Shown: piece by piece, positions 2,249 to 11,000 of the stretch | Layout: each line of letters starts with the position of its first letter | Numbering within the stretch: the stretch's first letter is position 1 | Assembly: GCF_000243335.1 (NCBI RefSeq) | Contig: NZ_JH597773.1 | Location: 3,990,115-4,054,114 of the forward strand | Length of the DNA stretch: 64,000 bases | Reading direction: 5' to 3' | Origin: Leptonema illini DSM 21528 | GTDB lineage: Bacteria; Spirochaetota; Leptospiria; Leptospirales; Leptonemataceae | Position numbers and translations under genes: made by a program | The notes under the pieces: model-generated | What the model saw: only the letters and a program-made list of their open reading frames with translations | The model's database searches: none | Told to the model about the DNA's origin: nothing

Positions 2249-3388
2249 TTATTCGACGAACAGGGTGCATCCCTTCAAATACTCGCCTTCGGGATGATAG
2301 ATGCTGATCGGATGATCCGGAGCCTGAGTGAGGAAGTCAACGATTTTCACATCCCGTCCGGCATCGGTGGCGGCGGCGAAGAGGATCTTACGAAAGAGGT
2401 CGGTGCTTATGTGCTGAGAGCAGGAGAAGGTGAAAAGCAGTCCGCCCGGTGCGATCTTTTTCATGGCCTGCAGGTTGATGTCTTTGTAGCCGCGCGCCGC
2501 CCTGTCGACGGCCGATCGCGTTTTTGCGAAGGCGGGCGGATCAAGAATGATGGCATCGAAGCGGCCGCCTTCGATTTCGCGCAGATAGTCAAAGCAGTCG
2601 GCCTTGAGAGTTTCGTGCTTCGCGTCGGCAGCGTTCAGTCGGACGTTCTCTTCGCAGAGTAGAAGAGCGGGGTCTGACAGATCGACCGAAAGGACGGACT
2701 TCGCTCCTCCGCGAAGAGCTGCCGCCGAAAAGCCTCCGGTGTAGGCGAAGGCGTTCAGGACGGTGCGGCCCGCGACTCGCTCTTCAACGACCCTGCGATT
2801 CTCGCGTTGATCGAGAAAAAAGCCGGTTTTCTGTCCGCCTTCAAGGTCGGCCTTGAAGCGCAGCCCGCGCTCGACGAACTCGACGAGCTTCACGGGCTCG
2901 CCGCCGTCAACGTGCCAGGCGTCATCGACGCGAAGAGTATGAATGGTCAGCCGTGCTTTGAGAAAGGATGCGGCGATCTGCAGCAAGTTGCGCGCCCCCT
3001 CATGCTGAATCTGCAGAACGGCCGCTCTGTCGTAGATGTCGCAGATCAGCCCCGGAAAGCCATCGGACTCGGAATGAATCAGTCGAAAGCCCGTCGTTTT
3101 CTCGGGAAGCAGCGCCCGTCGTAGCAGCAGCGCCTTTTCAAGTCGCTCCGTCCAGTAGGCCTCATCAAAACCCGATGCAGGCAGCGGACCGAAGTGAAAG
3201 AGCCGGCAGCGGATCTGATGGGCGGGATCGTAGAACCCCGCTCCGAGAACGGCGCCGTCATGCGACTGCACGGTGACGATGGACCCGGCAGGCACGGCAT
3301 CGACACGATGGACGCCTCCGCTGAAGATCCAGGGGTGACGGTGCAGAACGGAACGCTCGCGATCCTTCTTTAAAACAAGGGCTGCCAT
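2249..3388 (-). CDS. rlmI: 23S rRNA m5C methyltransferase, RlmI family
   Basis: A 379-residue class I SAM-dependent methyltransferase of the RlmI/YccW group, which methylates a cytosine in 23S rRNA. It begins with a PUA-like RNA-binding part (residues about 1-75; LHRHPWIFSGGV), followed by an EEHAD-like middle (HSESDGFPGLICD). The Rossmann methyltransferase domain has the SAM loop LNAFAYTGGFSAAAL and catalytic-site ILDPPAFAK, then FSCSQH. The frame is open for 100 more codons upstream, but those run into the divergent promoter region and lack similarity. The ATG at 3388 gives the normal family start MAALVLKKDRERSV. It is divergent from the binding-protein gene at 3504, and the esterase gene starts 32 bases downstream. 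Confidence 0.88.
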   Translation of the reverse strand: MAALVLKKDRERSVLHRHPWIFSGGVHRVDAVPAGSIVTVQSHDGAVLGAGFYDPAHQIRCRLFHFGPLPASGFDEAYWTERLEKALLLRRALLPEKTTGFRLIHSESDGFPGLICDIYDRAAVLQIQHEGARNLLQIAASFLKARLTIHTLRVDDAWHVDGGEPVKLVEFVERGLRFKADLEGGQKTGFFLDQRENRRVVEERVAGRTVLNAFAYTGGFSAAALRGGAKSVLSVDLSDPALLLCEENVRLNAADAKHETLKADCFDYLREIEGGRFDAIILDPPAFAKTRSAVDRAARGYKDINLQAMKKIAPGGLLFTFSCSQHISTDLFRKILFAAATDAGRDVKIVDFLTQAPDHPISIYHPEGEYLKGCTLFVE

Positions 3389-3503
3389 GCTGCCAGTTAT
3401 CCGGCGGATTGTTTGCAAACAAGCCACATCGCTCCCAAAAACCGGCGGATCGGATTTTCTTGTTGTTGCCGGGCCTGTTCTCGTCGATCCTGTAAACAGT
3501 ACT

Positions 3504-4427
3504 ATGTCCTGGCTTCGGAACTCATCCCATCGCGAGTCGGCACCGGTTTCGGTCCGCCTCAGTATCATCCCCCTGCTTTCCCTGCTCGCCTTGATGGCCT
3601 CCATCGGCTGCGGCGGAAACAGCGGAGGGTTTTCGGAGCCTACGTTTGATGAGCGAACAGAAATGCCGAAGGCAGCCGACGACTCCAATGCGCTGCGTTT
3701 TGGAGCCGCCTCTATGGAAAATCCGATCGAGCTGTCGGAGTCCTATTATCCTCTGCTGAAAGAGCTTTCAGAGAAGCTCGGTCGCCCGGTGCGCTTTGTG
3801 CCTCTTAAGAATAACGAGGAACTCATGCAGGCCATCATGCGCGGACAGGTCGATCTGGCCAGGCTCGGTCCGCTTGTTTATTTGAATCTGCGCGACCGCA
3901 CCGATCTTGAGGTGCTTGTACGGCCCGTGAAGAAAGACGGAACGGGAAGCTATGCCGTCATCGCCGTGCGAAATGACACGCCTATGAAAACGCTACAGCA
4001 GCTGCGAGGCAAGAGCATCGCGCTTGGCGATCCGAAATCCACGTATTCAAATATCATGCCCCGTAAGATGTTGCGCGATGCCGGCGTCGGCATGGGCGAA
4101 TTGAGCTCCGTCGGTATGCTCGGCAGTATGGATAACTGCGCACAGAACGTACTGAACGGAGCCTACGTCGCCGGAGCGATGAGCGATTCGATCTACGAAA
4201 AATTCAGGACGCGAGCCATAGGGCTGCGCATCCTGGCTCGCTCCGAGGACCTACCGGGTGAACCCATCGTTGCGCGCAGCGCGCTTGGAGCTGCGACCAT
4301 CGATCAGGTGAGGCGTGCGTTGCTTTCCGTGCGTGACCCCGAGGTTCTGCACGCCATTTCGCCTGGTCAGGAGGCCTATGTGCCGGCGGCGCCAGGAGAC
4401 TACGATCGCTTCAAGGCCTTCGAATGA
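3504..4427 (+). CDS. PhnD-like phosphate/phosphonate-type substrate-binding lipoprotein
   Basis: A 307-residue periplasmic binding protein of the PhnD/phosphite-binding type. It has an unusually long n-region, a hydrophobic segment, and a lipobox SIGC at residue 36, so it is predicted to be lipid-anchored. The body shows the two-lobed fold signatures of the group: ENPIELSESYYPLLKEL, MRGQVDLARLGPLVYLNL, LRGKSIALGDPKSTYS. I chose the ATG at 3504 because the 39 upstream codons have no signal-peptide character; no strong Shine-Dalgarno is visible. No ABC permease or ATPase lies beside it. The next gene, nine bases on, is a chemotaxis receptor, which suggests the protein presents a ligand to that receptor (inference). 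The ligand is unknown. Confidence 0.8.
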   Translation: MSWLRNSSHRESAPVSVRLSIIPLLSLLALMASIGCGGNSGGFSEPTFDERTEMPKAADDSNALRFGAASMENPIELSESYYPLLKELSEKLGRPVRFVPLKNNEELMQAIMRGQVDLARLGPLVYLNLRDRTDLEVLVRPVKKDGTGSYAVIAVRNDTPMKTLQQLRGKSIALGDPKSTYSNIMPRKMLRDAGVGMGELSSVGMLGSMDNCAQNVLNGAYVAGAMSDSIYEKFRTRAIGLRILARSEDLPGEPIVARSALGAATIDQVRRALLSVRDPEVLHAISPGQEAYVPAAPGDYDRFKAFE

Positions 4428-4436
4428 GGAAGTATC

Positions 4437-6125
4437 ATGTTGAATAAGATATGGAAGTTTTTTCTCGGGTTGAAGGTTCCTCTCAGCGTGAAGGTGATTA
4501 TTATGATCGCCTTCCTCGAAGCGGGGGCCGTCATCACGCTCGCCTTCTTTATTATTCTGTATAACTATCAGATTTTGCGCGGCGACGCCGACAGCCGGGC
4601 AAAAGAGATCGCCGTCGCTCTGCGCCGCCCCGTTATCGAGGCCATCATCCATAACGACTACATCAAGCTACAGAAGACGATCGAGCTGCTCGGCAAAGAA
4701 GAATCGATCCGCTATGCGATCATTCAGGACAAGCACGGACGGGCTCTCGTTCACAGCCATCCGCACTATGTGGGGCTCATTTTTAACGATGCGAATTCTC
4801 TGAAAGCATTCTATTCAGAGGGGCCGATCATTCAGGACTATTATGCCTTTGATCGCATTTATACGCGCGACTTCGCCATCCCGCTTGATACGGCGATGGG
4901 ACGTCTCGGCTTTATACGTATCGGTATGAATTTCGATACGCAGGTGCGCAAGCCGCTTATATTTACCGGCGTCGTCACGCTTGTTATGGTTTTCGTATTT
5001 ATCGGCATCGGAGTCTTGATCGCCATACCGGCGACGCGCATGCTGCTTGATCCCGTTCATTCTGTGCAGAGAGCGACCGAAGCGATCGCCGTCGGTGATT
5101 TAACCGTCAGCGTCGATACGATCAGTCGCGACGAGATCGGCGCGATGGCTCAGGCATTTAATCGAATGGTAGAAAGCCAGCGCTCGATGGTTTCATCCAT
5201 TCGGCATATTTCGGGCGACGTTTCGCATGCATCCGAAGAGCTTGCCGCCTCGTCCGAGCAGGTGTCGTCCTCAGCGGTTGAAGTTAACGATACCATTCAG
5301 AAAGTCGCCGACGATTCGGTGATGGGCATGCAGCATACGGCAGAGATCAATCGCATGATCGAATCGTTTACCGATCTCTTGAATCAGGCTCGCGATCAGG
5401 CGGGCAAAACGATGAAGGTGGCCGGCGATTCTTATTCGGCGGCCGATCAGGGCCGCCAGGACGTCATCGTCATGAATGAAACGATGTTTCAGATCAAGAC
5501 GGGATCAGAGGAGAATCTTCAGGCCATTCTGCAGCTCGACGAATTCACACGTCAGATCGAAGGCATCACCGACGCCATCAGCGGCATCGCCGGTCAGATC
5601 AACCTGCTTGCGCTGAACGCCGCCATCGAAGCGGCCCGAGCCGGCGACGTCGGTCGGGGCTTTGCGGTCGTCGCCGATGAGATCGGCAAGCTCGCCGATC
5701 AGTCGACGCGCCAGGCCAAAGACGTGGCTACGATGGTAAACCGCATCATTGAGATCACGCGCAGCTCCGTCGGCGTAACGAAGAAGCAATCCGAATTGAT
5801 TCTGCAAGGCGCAGAGGCCGCCTCGGCGGTAAATGAATCGCTCGGCCGCATTGTCGAGGCCTCCCGTTCGATTTCCTCGCAGGCGCAGACAATCCTTGAA
5901 ATCGCCGAAAAAGAGGTGCGTGAATCCGATGCCGTCCGATCCCGGATTAACGCTCTCAATTCGCTGATCAGCGACACGGCCAACCGTGCCGTCGAGGTCC
6001 GCCAGGCCACCCGGGAAACGACCGGAGCCATGGAAGAGGTGGCCCGGGGATCGCAAACCCTCAGCGCGCTGGCCGTCAACCTCAAGGAGATGGTGGAGCA
6101 GTTCAAGCTCGGAAAGGACGACTGA
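4437..6125 (+). CDS. Methyl-accepting chemotaxis protein
   Basis: A 562-residue transmembrane chemoreceptor. TM1 spans residues about 18-43. An extracytoplasmic sensor of about 130 residues follows (contains [17 protein letters not shown], resembling a small PAS/Cache-like strand pattern). TM2 spans about 175-198, then HAMP to about 252 and a long coiled-coil signalling domain. The CheA/CheW-contacting hairpin tip is clear ([16 protein letters not shown], then [18 protein letters not shown]). It has no C-terminal CheR pentapeptide. A GAGG Shine-Dalgarno precedes the ATG. It is nine bases after the PhnD-like lipoprotein, and its stop overlaps the next start by one base, so the three genes are probably co-translated. 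Confidence 0.93.
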
Positions 6126-7667: not shown

Positions 7668-9842
7668 TCACACGGCCTCCGGCTGGACGACGCCCGTCTG
7701 ATCAATGCTCTTCAACTCACGCATGCGTTTCGTCATGATCTCACGCATGCTGAAGTGAAAGATGGGCGCCGATTCGACGATCTTGCGGATCTCTCCCCGT
7801 GCGATGCGGATAACGATGCTGTCTTTAAGCGCACGGACGGTGGCATTGCGAACGGTGTTGGCCAGCGAGCCGTATTCGCCGAACATATCGCCGCCTCGTA
7901 TGACGTTCACCTCGACTCCGTTGCGGGTAACGCTGAACTCCCCTGAGAGGATAATATAAAAATCGGCGTCGGTTTTTCCCTGTTCGACGAGCGTCTCGCC
8001 TTCGGCGACGCGCAGGCGCACACAGTTGCGGGCGATGCGATCGTTGACGTTATCGGCAAAATCGGCGAAAGGCCAGTAGCGCTCGATTTCGGATCGCACC
8101 TTCCACAGATGCTGCATCTCTTCGACGCGATTTTCATCGATCAGAAATTCGTGAAAGAGTTTCTCGTCGATGGCACAGAGGGCAACGGGTGTACGTGCGA
8201 CGATGGAGGCCGAACGCACCTTGTTCTCGTCCAGCACGGCCATCTCCCCCACGAAGTCGCCGGCCTCTTTGCGCGTGCGTTCTGTGAGTTTGCGTCCGTC
8301 GTGCACCATGACGCTGACGGTGCCGGCCAGGATAATGTAGATCAGACCGCGAGATGTTTCGCCCTGCTTGAAGATGACATCCCCTGAATTGAAGGTCTGG
8401 ATCTGGAAGCTGTTCATCAGAGCGGTGCTCCAGCCATGCGACATGTTCCGAAAGGAGTCGCCGAGGATCTGCATAGTGCGGATCAGATAGGAATCGTGGC
8501 TTCCCGGAATAATCGGATAACGCTTTCCCGCCACCGCATGCGAGAATGTGGCGTCGAATTCTGTGGGCAGGCTTTCCAGATGCATGAAGACGATACGATC
8601 GGATTGCGAATGCAGGGCGTCGCGCGGATCACCGTGCAGAATTCCCTGTCCGCCGTCGGCAAAGAGGATGTCGTGTCGATCCGTGTACAGGCTCTTTAAT
8701 GCGTCGAACTTCTCTTTGCGCACGATTCCCTGCGCTACCATGCCTTCGATGTCTTTGAAGGCTTTGTTGTCGCCGATAAATACGACGCTTCGCGTGGTCG
8801 TGCCGTCTTTCATACGAAAGGTGGCGCCGATCGTCGGTATCGAATGCACCGTATAATGCGGCGTGATGGACATACCGTAGAATTCGGTCACCTCATAGGG
8901 CTTCACTTCTACGAAATCAAACATGGCCGAAAGATGCTCGACGGGCATCAGGGTCTGAAGCGATAGCTTCATCATCGCCATCCAGAAGATCTCTTTGGTG
9001 GCGAGCAGCTGTACCTTGTTTGATAGCCTCAGAAGCGGATAGATGTTGCAGTGATCGTCGTGAATATGCGTCAGGTAAATGGATCGAATCTCTGAGAAAG
9101 AGACTCCGCGCGCATTGAGCGCCTGCTCCAGATAGGGTGGACAGTCGACGAGCATATACTCTGAGTTATACTGTAAGAGAATCGACGAGCAGGGCTTGTC
9201 GGCGATAAAGCCCGAGGCCCCGCCGAGCACCGTTACGCCGAGCCGCATGGGTATCGGCGTGATGAAGTCGCTGCGCAGATCGTAAGGAGGCTGCTGCGGT
9301 TCGTCGAAGTTTACGTCGATCTCTTCGCCGGCAAGGCGATACCGATCCTTTCCCGTATGCTCGATTTTTGTACCGTCTGCGAGGGTCGCGATTCCATCGA
9401 CGAAGGGAACGAAATCCACGAAGTCGTCTATAATGAACTCGCGGCCTGACGGATCTTTAACGGCCATGGCGCGCGATTCGCGGTAGAGTTCGTCAAACCA
9501 GTGCGAATCGCCTAGCTCGGCATACTCCTTTCGGGTCGGCCCGAGCAGCGTCAGTCGCAGCAGTTTGCGGTTGGCCTTGATGTGAAGCGGCGTGCCGACG
9601 ATGGTCAGCTTCTTGCCGCTGCGAAAGTTACCCTCGACAAATAGGAAAGAATAGAGCGGGAACTCGGTGCAGTTCTGTAAGACGTCGAAGCGATACGGAG
9701 TATCGGGCAGCACGATCACATCGGGGCTCTTGATGCCTTTAAGCATGAGATGTTTGATCACCTCGGGAGGACATCCGAAGAGTACGTTTCGTTCAGCCGT
9801 CTGGCATACGGTTACGCCAGGAGCCACTTCAATCACTGCCAT
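7668..9842 (-). CDS. Metallo-beta-lactamase-fold protein fused to two cyclic-nucleotide-binding domains
   Basis: A 724-residue cytoplasmic-looking protein. Residues 1 to about 195 are an N-terminal region I cannot assign. Residues about 200-460 form a metallo-beta-lactamase/RNase Z-like domain with SSILLQYNSEYMLVDCPP, the metal motif THIHDDH (259-264, HxHxDH) and VVFIGDNK as the likely later Asp ligand. Two cNMP-binding (CRP-type) domains follow, each with the beta-barrel and phosphate-cassette pattern. The first contains GDVIFKQGETSRGLIYIILAG and GDFVGEMAVL. The second contains GETLVEQGKTDADFYIILSG and GDMFGEYGSL. No helix-turn-helix is seen. Most likely it is a hydrolase (phosphodiesterase or nuclease) gated by a cyclic nucleotide. 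It is a single gene with its own divergent upstream region. Confidence 0.85.
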   Translation of the reverse strand: MAVIEVAPGVTVCQTAERNVLFGCPPEVIKHLMLKGIKSPDVIVLPDTPYRFDVLQNCTEFPLYSFLFVEGNFRSGKKLTIVGTPLHIKANRKLLRLTLLGPTRKEYAELGDSHWFDELYRESRAMAVKDPSGREFIIDDFVDFVPFVDGIATLADGTKIEHTGKDRYRLAGEEIDVNFDEPQQPPYDLRSDFITPIPMRLGVTVLGGASGFIADKPCSSILLQYNSEYMLVDCPPYLEQALNARGVSFSEIRSIYLTHIHDDHCNIYPLLRLSNKVQLLATKEIFWMAMMKLSLQTLMPVEHLSAMFDFVEVKPYEVTEFYGMSITPHYTVHSIPTIGATFRMKDGTTTRSVVFIGDNKAFKDIEGMVAQGIVRKEKFDALKSLYTDRHDILFADGGQGILHGDPRDALHSQSDRIVFMHLESLPTEFDATFSHAVAGKRYPIIPGSHDSYLIRTMQILGDSFRNMSHGWSTALMNSFQIQTFNSGDVIFKQGETSRGLIYIILAGTVSVMVHDGRKLTERTRKEAGDFVGEMAVLDENKVRSASIVARTPVALCAIDEKLFHEFLIDENRVEEMQHLWKVRSEIERYWPFADFADNVNDRIARNCVRLRVAEGETLVEQGKTDADFYIILSGEFSVTRNGVEVNVIRGGDMFGEYGSLANTVRNATVRALKDSIVIRIARGEIRKIVESAPIFHFSMREIMTKRMRELKSIDQTGVVQPEAV

Positions 9843-10124
9843 GACGAATTAGCCTGTAGAGGCCAATCTTTCGCAAGCCATTTTTTGTCTGGCTTTGCAT
9901 GATCCGGCCGGTCGAGGCCTGATGTTATCGGAAGTGGGGCCCGCCGGGAATGGAGTGGGTAATCTGAGTTCATTGCTTAATAAAGACGGATTCTTCGCAT
10001 TTTTCCCATTTAATAAATTCCTGTAAAAATACTTGCCTTCTATGTTTGAAAATGCGCGTATGAGTAACGCCCGGGTATGCTTAGAAATACAGTGGAATTC
10101 GCTATTATTAAGAGGTACTCCGAA
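9843..10124. other. Divergent intergenic region
   Basis: A 282-base gap between the leftward metallo-hydrolase fusion and the rightward secreted protein. The part at about 9975-10050 is AT-rich (TTAATAAA occurs twice, near 9977 and 10009) and is the likely site of both promoters. I cannot place a convincing -35/-10 pair. An in-frame ATG at 10077 for the right-hand gene is judged too early, because it would precede the signal peptide with unrelated residues. Confidence 0.5.
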
Positions 10125-11000
10125 ATGAAAAGAATCATCACAGCCCTTCTTCTGCTGCCGGCAGCCTTACTCTCACAGGAATTCACCGGATATTCAAACG
10201 ATGCCATCGAGGTCACGGCCATCGGTCCGGCCATGCAGGAAGACGGCCTCTACTGGACGATTACGTATCACACAAAAGCGGATAACATCGACCGCCTTAC
10301 GTTTGCCGATGTCTCTGACAATGGTAATCAGTCTGTACTCAGTCTGACGGGAAAAGAAATCTACGCGACAAATACCCACATGAGCGCGAAGATGGAGCCC
10401 TCGCAGTATCAGTGGGTTTATGAAACGGGGCAAACGCATCGACTCTTCGCCGTTACGGCCACCATCAAAGGAAAGGCGACTGTACTGTATGCTCCGCTGC
10501 GATTTACCGAGCCGGCGAAGCAGAGCTTTCGCATGCTGCTGAAAATGCGAACGGGACACGATCAGCCGACGGTCGATGTGTTTCCCTATCACTATCTTGA
10601 CGGCCGCAAATGGATCGCCCGCAATTCGGGCGAGGATCAGAACCAGAGGCTGATCGAGTGCACCCTGGCCGATGAAAAGATCACATCATGGACGGAGCTT
10701 TTCACTCAATCGATTCTTCTGCGTGCGATAGAGCCCGAGCGGTTTCTTGAGATCATCCAGAGCAATCTGGCGAAAGACTGTGACTCCCTCAAATTCGAGA
10801 AAACTCAGATTGGCGAAGGAAAGTATTTCTATGAATGGCGGCATAGCGGTTGTGGCGGTTATCCGGCGCAACATGAGATTGCGGTCGTGAATTCTGTTCC
10901 CGAAGGAGTCGTGAACGTGCGCTACACCTTTAAGGGCCCGCAGATGCCGAAGAAAAACTACGAAATCTGGAAGTCTCTGCTGACCGGGAATTCCCGGTGA
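10125..11000 (+). CDS. Secreted protein of unknown function
   Basis: A 291-residue protein starting at the ATG at 10125, which has an AGAGGT Shine-Dalgarno eight bases upstream and directly begins a signal peptide (MKRIITALLLLPAALLSQEF). The mature part is predicted to be largely beta-strand, with FRMLLKMRTGHDQPTVDVFPY in the middle and a short Cys-Gly segment (HSGCGGYPAQHEIAV) near residues 245-260. Two other Cys residues (in IECTL and KDCDS) could make disulfides. I recognise no domain. The C-terminal GGYPAQHEIAVVNSVPEGVVNVRYTFKG is beta-rich. It is monocistronic as far as can be seen. Confidence 0.7.
   Translation: MKRIITALLLLPAALLSQEFTGYSNDAIEVTAIGPAMQEDGLYWTITYHTKADNIDRLTFADVSDNGNQSVLSLTGKEIYATNTHMSAKMEPSQYQWVYETGQTHRLFAVTATIKGKATVLYAPLRFTEPAKQSFRMLLKMRTGHDQPTVDVFPYHYLDGRKWIARNSGEDQNQRLIECTLADEKITSWTELFTQSILLRAIEPERFLEIIQSNLAKDCDSLKFEKTQIGEGKYFYEWRHSGCGGYPAQHEIAVVNSVPEGVVNVRYTFKGPQMPKKNYEIWKSLLTGNSR

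Follow-up and report, generated by a model that had tools for sequence, protein, structure and literature searches.

A metallo-beta-lactamase protein with two cyclic nucleotide-binding domains from Leptonema illini, a probable cyclic-nucleotide-controlled phosphodiesterase

Described enzymes and the layout of the protein

In Dictyostelium, GbpA and GbpB consist of a metallo-beta-lactamase (MBL) domain followed by two cyclic nucleotide-binding (CNB) domains; cGMP or cAMP activates them and both nucleotides are hydrolysed (PMC11988041). Apyc1 and YhfI are cyclic-NMP phosphodiesterases that form homodimers, and Apyc1 needs residues from the opposing protomer (PMC9117128). The motif [T/S]HxHxDH is the signature of the 'atypical class II' phosphodiesterases (PMC9293780). 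Bd1971 of Bdellovibrio is described as a c-di-GMP phosphodiesterase that senses cAMP directly (PMC6717892).

We analysed a window of 64,000 nucleotides from L. illini DSM 21528 (genome of 4.52 Mb in 3 contigs; about 54% G+C in the window), in which an ORF with an ATG start encodes a protein of 724 aa. The domain order along the chain is N-terminal domain, MBL domain, CNB1 and CNB2, and the features lie in the window as follows.

7668..9842, minus strand: complete gene; an ORF with orthologues 50-84% identical over the full length and a pN/pS of 0.17
9258..9842, minus strand: N-terminal domain, aa 1-195; predicted structure, weak profile match to the MBL domain, ELAC2 aligned along the N half
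8505..9248, minus strand: catalytic MBL domain, aa 199-446; profile matches to Apyc1 and BA1088, Foldseek matches to 1zkp, YhfI and Apyc1
9051..9068, minus strand: HxHxDH metal motif, H259, H261, D263 and H264; invariant in 75/75 relatives
8844..8846, minus strand: metal ligand H333; invariant in 75/75 relatives
8769..8771, minus strand: bridging metal ligand D358; invariant in 75/75 relatives
8634..8636, minus strand: H403, which corresponds to the HT-motif His of Apyc1; 75/75 relatives, aligned to HTTLQEL of Apyc1
8580..8582, minus strand: metal ligand H421; 74/75 relatives and one undetermined letter X
8142..8399, minus strand: CNB1, aa 482-567; PF00027
8208..8249, minus strand: CNB1 phosphate-binding cassette, G532 E533 ... 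R543 S544 A545; Glu/Asp and Arg in most relatives
7770..8012, minus strand: CNB2, about aa 611-691; PF00027
7842..7880, minus strand: CNB2 phosphate-binding cassette, G655 E656 ... R665 N666 A667; intact in 15/15 tree rows of the clade of the window protein

In a Pfam search with the whole protein, cNMP_binding (PF00027) matched two stretches (E 1.1e-34, 118.7 bits against a gathering cut-off of 27.5). The MBL matches, from aa 199 on, were all below threshold (Lactamase_B_2 8e-5, Lactamase_B 7e-4, Apyc1 6e-4). Neither a DNA-binding domain nor the class I (PF00233) or classical class II (PF02112) phosphodiesterase family was among the Pfam matches of the protein. The AlphaFold2 model of the whole protein, built from 24 relatives, showed a pLDDT of 88 and a pTM of 0.89, and that of aa 1-460 alone (32 relatives) reached 92 and 0.92; Foldseek led from the whole model to tandem-CNB proteins and from aa 1-460 to MBL hydrolases. 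The gene is under purifying selection, with a pN/pS of 0.17 against an orthologue of 83% identity and 0.14-0.21 across every domain. The original prediction of an HxHxDH hydrolase of MBL type, joined to two cNMP-binding domains and free of a DNA-binding domain, agrees with these results: the motif was correctly placed at H259/H261, it is accompanied by H333, D358 and H421, all conserved in the 75 relatives, and the proposed MBL-CNB-CNB architecture was recovered both by Pfam and in the model and recurs in full-length relatives from many phyla. The N-terminal domain had been overlooked.

The window protein has the same MBL-CNB-CNB order as GbpA and GbpB of Dictyostelium discoideum (class IIb MBL phosphodiesterases), but those are eukaryotic, tested enzymes. 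Apyc1, the anti-Pycsar enzyme (PDB 7u2r, 7u2s and 7t28), is the best PDB profile match to the MBL domain and has HxHxDH in common with it, yet it is a homodimer of 245-257 aa chains without CNB domains that is also phage-borne, whereas here a single chain carries the sensors. YhfI of B. subtilis, Rv1339 of M. tuberculosis and CpdA of C. glutamicum likewise share [T/S]HxHxDH, the MBL fold and the domain size, but differ from the window protein in lacking CNB domains and the putative N-terminal half-MBL. Bd1971 is comparable as a bacterial messenger hydrolase directly controlled by cAMP, although its catalytic domain is an EAL domain and its messenger another one.

The N-terminal domain

The N-terminal domain (aa 1-195) showed no match in Pfam and none among PDB sequences. 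In the AlphaFold2 models, where its pLDDT exceeds 90 in most blocks, the predicted order is strand 10-14, strand 19-22, helix 28-34, strand 42-44, helix 60-69, strand 79-83, helix 85-100 and helix 104-110, followed by one extra helix (114-125) and by strands 142-146, 151-153 and 159-164. The MBL domain shows the same order over its first half in these models, with predicted strands 220-225 and 228-232, helix 238-243, strand 252-256, helix 268-272, strand 277-281, helices 283-297 and 301-306, and strands 308-312, 319-321 and 324-330. An hhalign comparison of the two halves gave a weak match, but in the expected register, with 'LFGCPPEVIKHL' on 'LVDCPPYLEQAL'. Since its E-value is just 0.04-0.05, we base the internal MBL duplication on the predicted structure. 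When aa 1-460 were searched with Foldseek, the tandem-MBL protein ELAC2 aligned along both halves, over 656 columns and with a TMq of 0.55, compared with about 0.40 for single MBL proteins. As is probable for the window protein, this long-form tRNase Z combines a degenerate N-terminal MBL half with an active C-terminal MBL; however, the window protein has no exosite-sized insertion, has added CNB domains and shows no detectable sequence match in the N half. Within the family, G23, P25, K30, E60, F61 and G101 of the N-terminal domain are invariant, and GxPPExIK is its motif.

Considering the models, the N-terminal domain is probably a degenerate half-MBL without metal ligands, which would make the protein a tandem MBL. 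This half may take the place of the opposing protomer of the YhfI/Apyc1 homodimer within a single chain. Proteins of 436-438 aa consisting of the N-terminal domain and the MBL domain without CNB domains occur in two loci (L123 2485-3798 and L124 2534-3841); accordingly, the two domains form one evolutionary unit.

The catalytic domain and its substrate

Among 75 aligned relatives from several phyla, H259, H261, D263, H264, H333, D358 and H403 are invariant; the only deviation at H421 is a single undetermined letter. THIHDDH at 258-264 agrees with the [T/S]HxHxDH signature and, together with H333, D358 and H421, completes the set of dinuclear metal ligands. Against solved chains, the MBL profile of the family matched Apyc1 (2.3e-11), BA1088 (a Bacillus anthracis relative among the nearest MBL matches; 2.6e-11), two more Apyc1 structures and YhfI, all ahead of RNase Z, and these leading matches to Apyc1 and its relatives ranged from 2.3e-11 to 2e-9. 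The Foldseek ranking for aa 1-460 was headed by 1zkp, YhfI and Apyc1, again ahead of RNase Z, with TM-scores to the target of 0.69-0.72. The subfamily of a second paralogue resembles Apyc1 further in its HE...HT...LP.EIQ tail, which it shares with Paenibacillus Apyc1 as HE..HT....L..LP.EIQ..I...H; the tail alignment scored 57, a value reached by 0/2000 shuffles, of which the best scored 45. H333 and D358 lie 25 residues apart (21-25 across the family), and in the same genome the spacing between the third and fourth ligands is 22 in a stand-alone phosphodiesterase-like MBL protein and 52 in an RNase-Z-like one. The invariant ligands, the nearest profiles and folds, the signature, the tail motif and the short gap together favour a cyclic-nucleotide phosphodiesterase.

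Several observations count against a phosphodiesterase. Besides the matches to RNase Z models described below, we saw no obvious counterpart of the Apyc1 catalytic residues E74 and Y112 when the alignments were read by eye, the clade of the window protein has DGG in place of the HEAG-type motif of the paralogue, and the genome holds further MBL proteins that could be phosphodiesterases. The curated models were also not reached: NF041851, the NCBIfam model of a cyclic-nucleotide-degrading phosphodiesterase, gave 2.5e-6 and 27 bits against a cut-off of 400, and the Pfam Apyc1 model gave 19.8 bits against 50. Therefore, the protein resembles these enzymes and probably works alike, but is no member by the definition of those models.

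It is unlikely that the substrate of the MBL domain is a lactone or another phosphoester and that the CNB domains sense cAMP to regulate an unrelated metabolic step in feed-forward fashion. MBL enzymes switch substrates easily within the superfamily, the DGG motif departs from the HEAG form, and weaker NCBIfam matches include PhnP, AidB and others; however, cyclic-nucleotide phosphodiesterases give the best matches in both fold and profile, and the neighbouring genes are not metabolic.

We regard as decidedly unlikely a ribonuclease in which the MBL domain acts on RNA like RNase Z and is switched by nucleotide binding to the CNB domains. The strongest matches to curated families are indeed those to RNase Z (aa 202-348, 2.4e-12; TIGR02651 at 38 bits, below its cut-off of 292.95), and over 32 members of the family the RNase Z models match 31, and more strongly, whereas the phosphodiesterase model matches 9. 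The tandem MBL arrangement, as in ELAC2, points the same way. The RNase Z alignment, however, ends at aa 348-349, short of D358, whereas the phosphodiesterase model extends through this ligand. In RNase Z, the tRNA-binding exosite arm sits between the His of motif 3 and the Asp of motif 4, and the gap of 21-25 residues between H333 and D358 leaves no room for it. Moreover, the nearest folds are YhfI and Apyc1, the tail motif is Apyc1-like, and a separate RNase-Z-like gene is present elsewhere in the genome. The original prediction had left open both second-messenger turnover and an RNA- or nucleotide-based response. With the phosphodiesterase-like fold, the intact cassettes and the precedent of GbpA and GbpB, messenger turnover under cyclic-nucleotide control gains, and the RNA branch recedes with the missing exosite insertion and with YhfI and Apyc1 as the nearest folds.

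The sensor domains, the family and the genome

Both CNB domains keep the phosphate-binding Glu and Arg, namely E533 and R543 in CNB1 (spacing 10) and E656 and R665 in CNB2 (spacing 9). A spacing of 10 is that of CRP, and 9 is that of the regulatory subunits of PKA. Among the 75 relatives, the CNB1 cassette has Glu in 68, Asp in 5 and Arg in 68. A quick tree of 63 members, in which some branches are long, showed both cassettes intact in every member of the clade of the window protein (15/15). The second cassette is lost in related gammaproteobacterial and verrucomicrobial proteins and in the paralogue clade, and both are lost in an alphaproteobacterial/Bacteroidota clade that keeps the MBL ligands. 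Accordingly, the clade of the window protein is the one most fully equipped for sensing, and regulation by cyclic nucleotides is not constant across the family. PADLOC matches to PycTIR and PycC fall only in the CNB domains, and the similarity to PycTIR sensors makes cyclic pyrimidines possible as a ligand. It is highly improbable that the CNB domains are structural or interaction modules without ligand sensing in a constitutive phosphodiesterase: the CNB2 cassette is gone in most relatives, that of CNB1 as well in alphaproteobacterial, Bacteroidota and other members, and forms without CNB domains exist, but in all 15 clade members both cassettes are intact and show the Glu-Arg spacing of true receptors (9-10), and the gene is under purifying selection.

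The genome (contigs C1 and C3) encodes 27 cyclase domains of class III as well as 26 CNB domains. PDEase_II (PF02112) found no match in this genome, nor did class I phosphodiesterases, for which control genomes gave no match either. To our knowledge, the removal of cyclic nucleotides in this spirochaete group, whose genomes can hold dozens of class III cyclases, is largely unstudied, and the family is a direct candidate for this role with built-in feedback. The Glu and Arg of both cassettes, a genome rich in cyclases and CNB domains with no PDEase_II match, and the precedent of GbpA and GbpB favour a phosphodiesterase regulated by cyclic nucleotides.

We consider it probable that the window protein is an MBL-type cyclic-nucleotide phosphodiesterase under allosteric control by cyclic nucleotides. 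It would be a soluble, stand-alone enzyme that holds two metal ions, probably zinc, in its MBL domain (aa 199-446) and there converts a 3',5'-cyclic mononucleotide to the 5'-NMP by opening the cyclic phosphate. The substrate would most likely be cAMP, with cGMP or cyclic pyrimidines possible. Cyclic nucleotide bound at the two intact cassettes would control the hydrolase, most likely by activating it, and rising levels of the messenger would then speed up the removal of the same messenger.

The MBL-CNB-CNB architecture is a real and old family. Orthologues are present in part of the same class, and nearly all of its genomes carry a second paralogue with about 25% identity over the full length; nearly all genomes of the class that were searched hold one or both, and the window genome carries both. 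At 1e-15, a profile of the N-terminal and MBL domains matched 110/296 Spirochaetota genomes. In a scan of GTDB genome contigs, full-length relatives were found in at least seven phyla, with record titles naming Spirochaetota, Gammaproteobacteria, Alphaproteobacteria, Verrucomicrobiota, Bacteroidota, Planctomycetota, Myxococcota and Thermodesulfobacteriota; many of these source records are MAGs, so single phylum assignments may be wrong. This bacterial family of many phyla appears uncharacterised. New here are the family and its breadth, the probable half-MBL N-terminal domain, the two intact sensor sites in the clade of the window protein, and the hemerythrin fusion and CNB loss elsewhere.

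More tentatively, these proteins could form a widespread family of allosteric phosphodiesterases in bacteria, in which a dead half-MBL pairs with a live MBL inside one chain as a pseudo-dimer, with one or two cyclic-nucleotide receptors as its gate and, in other lineages, a fused hemerythrin domain, possibly of common origin with the Dictyostelium enzymes. If this is true, the two intact receptor sites of the clade would make cAMP pulses cooperative and self-limiting in spirochaetes that possess dozens of cyclases. The family, as a candidate for cyclic-nucleotide removal, would also carry a regulatory design proven in a slime mould over to bacteria of many phyla, and would tie catalytic domains of the Apyc1 type to house-keeping control of second messengers.

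Relatives of 849-884 aa in Alphaproteobacteria and Spirochaetota have a C-terminal hemerythrin domain after the MBL and CNB part (L076; L120 2648-5227; L121 703-3318; L122 2574-5120), which suggests an oxygen- or iron-sensing variant; CNB cassettes are degenerate in L076, L091 and L105. For the window protein itself, an O2-sensing di-iron role was set aside, as it has no hemerythrin and carries HxHxDH rather than HxExDH, the motif of flavodiiron proteins.

A comparison of orthologue loci found no conserved neighbours, which fits a free-standing enzyme. The N-terminal and MBL part had no match in the plasmid or the phage collection. With the PADLOC matches confined to the CNB domains and nothing pointing to defence, an origin in mobile elements or defence was set aside. 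In the same genome, the paralogue lies directly upstream of an ORF for an Lhr-type helicase on the same strand (L130 1-2988 and 2989-5160; C1:1845600-1853800); a link to DNA or RNA repair was dropped, as this adjacency occurs in none of the other loci compared.

The divergent neighbour of the gene in the window (10077-11000) encodes 307 aa with no Pfam match. At 3387-6125, an ORF for a PhnD-like substrate-binding lipoprotein is followed on the same strand by one for a methyl-accepting chemotaxis protein, a pair that, judged from the translations, reads like a ligand-binding protein with its chemoreceptor.
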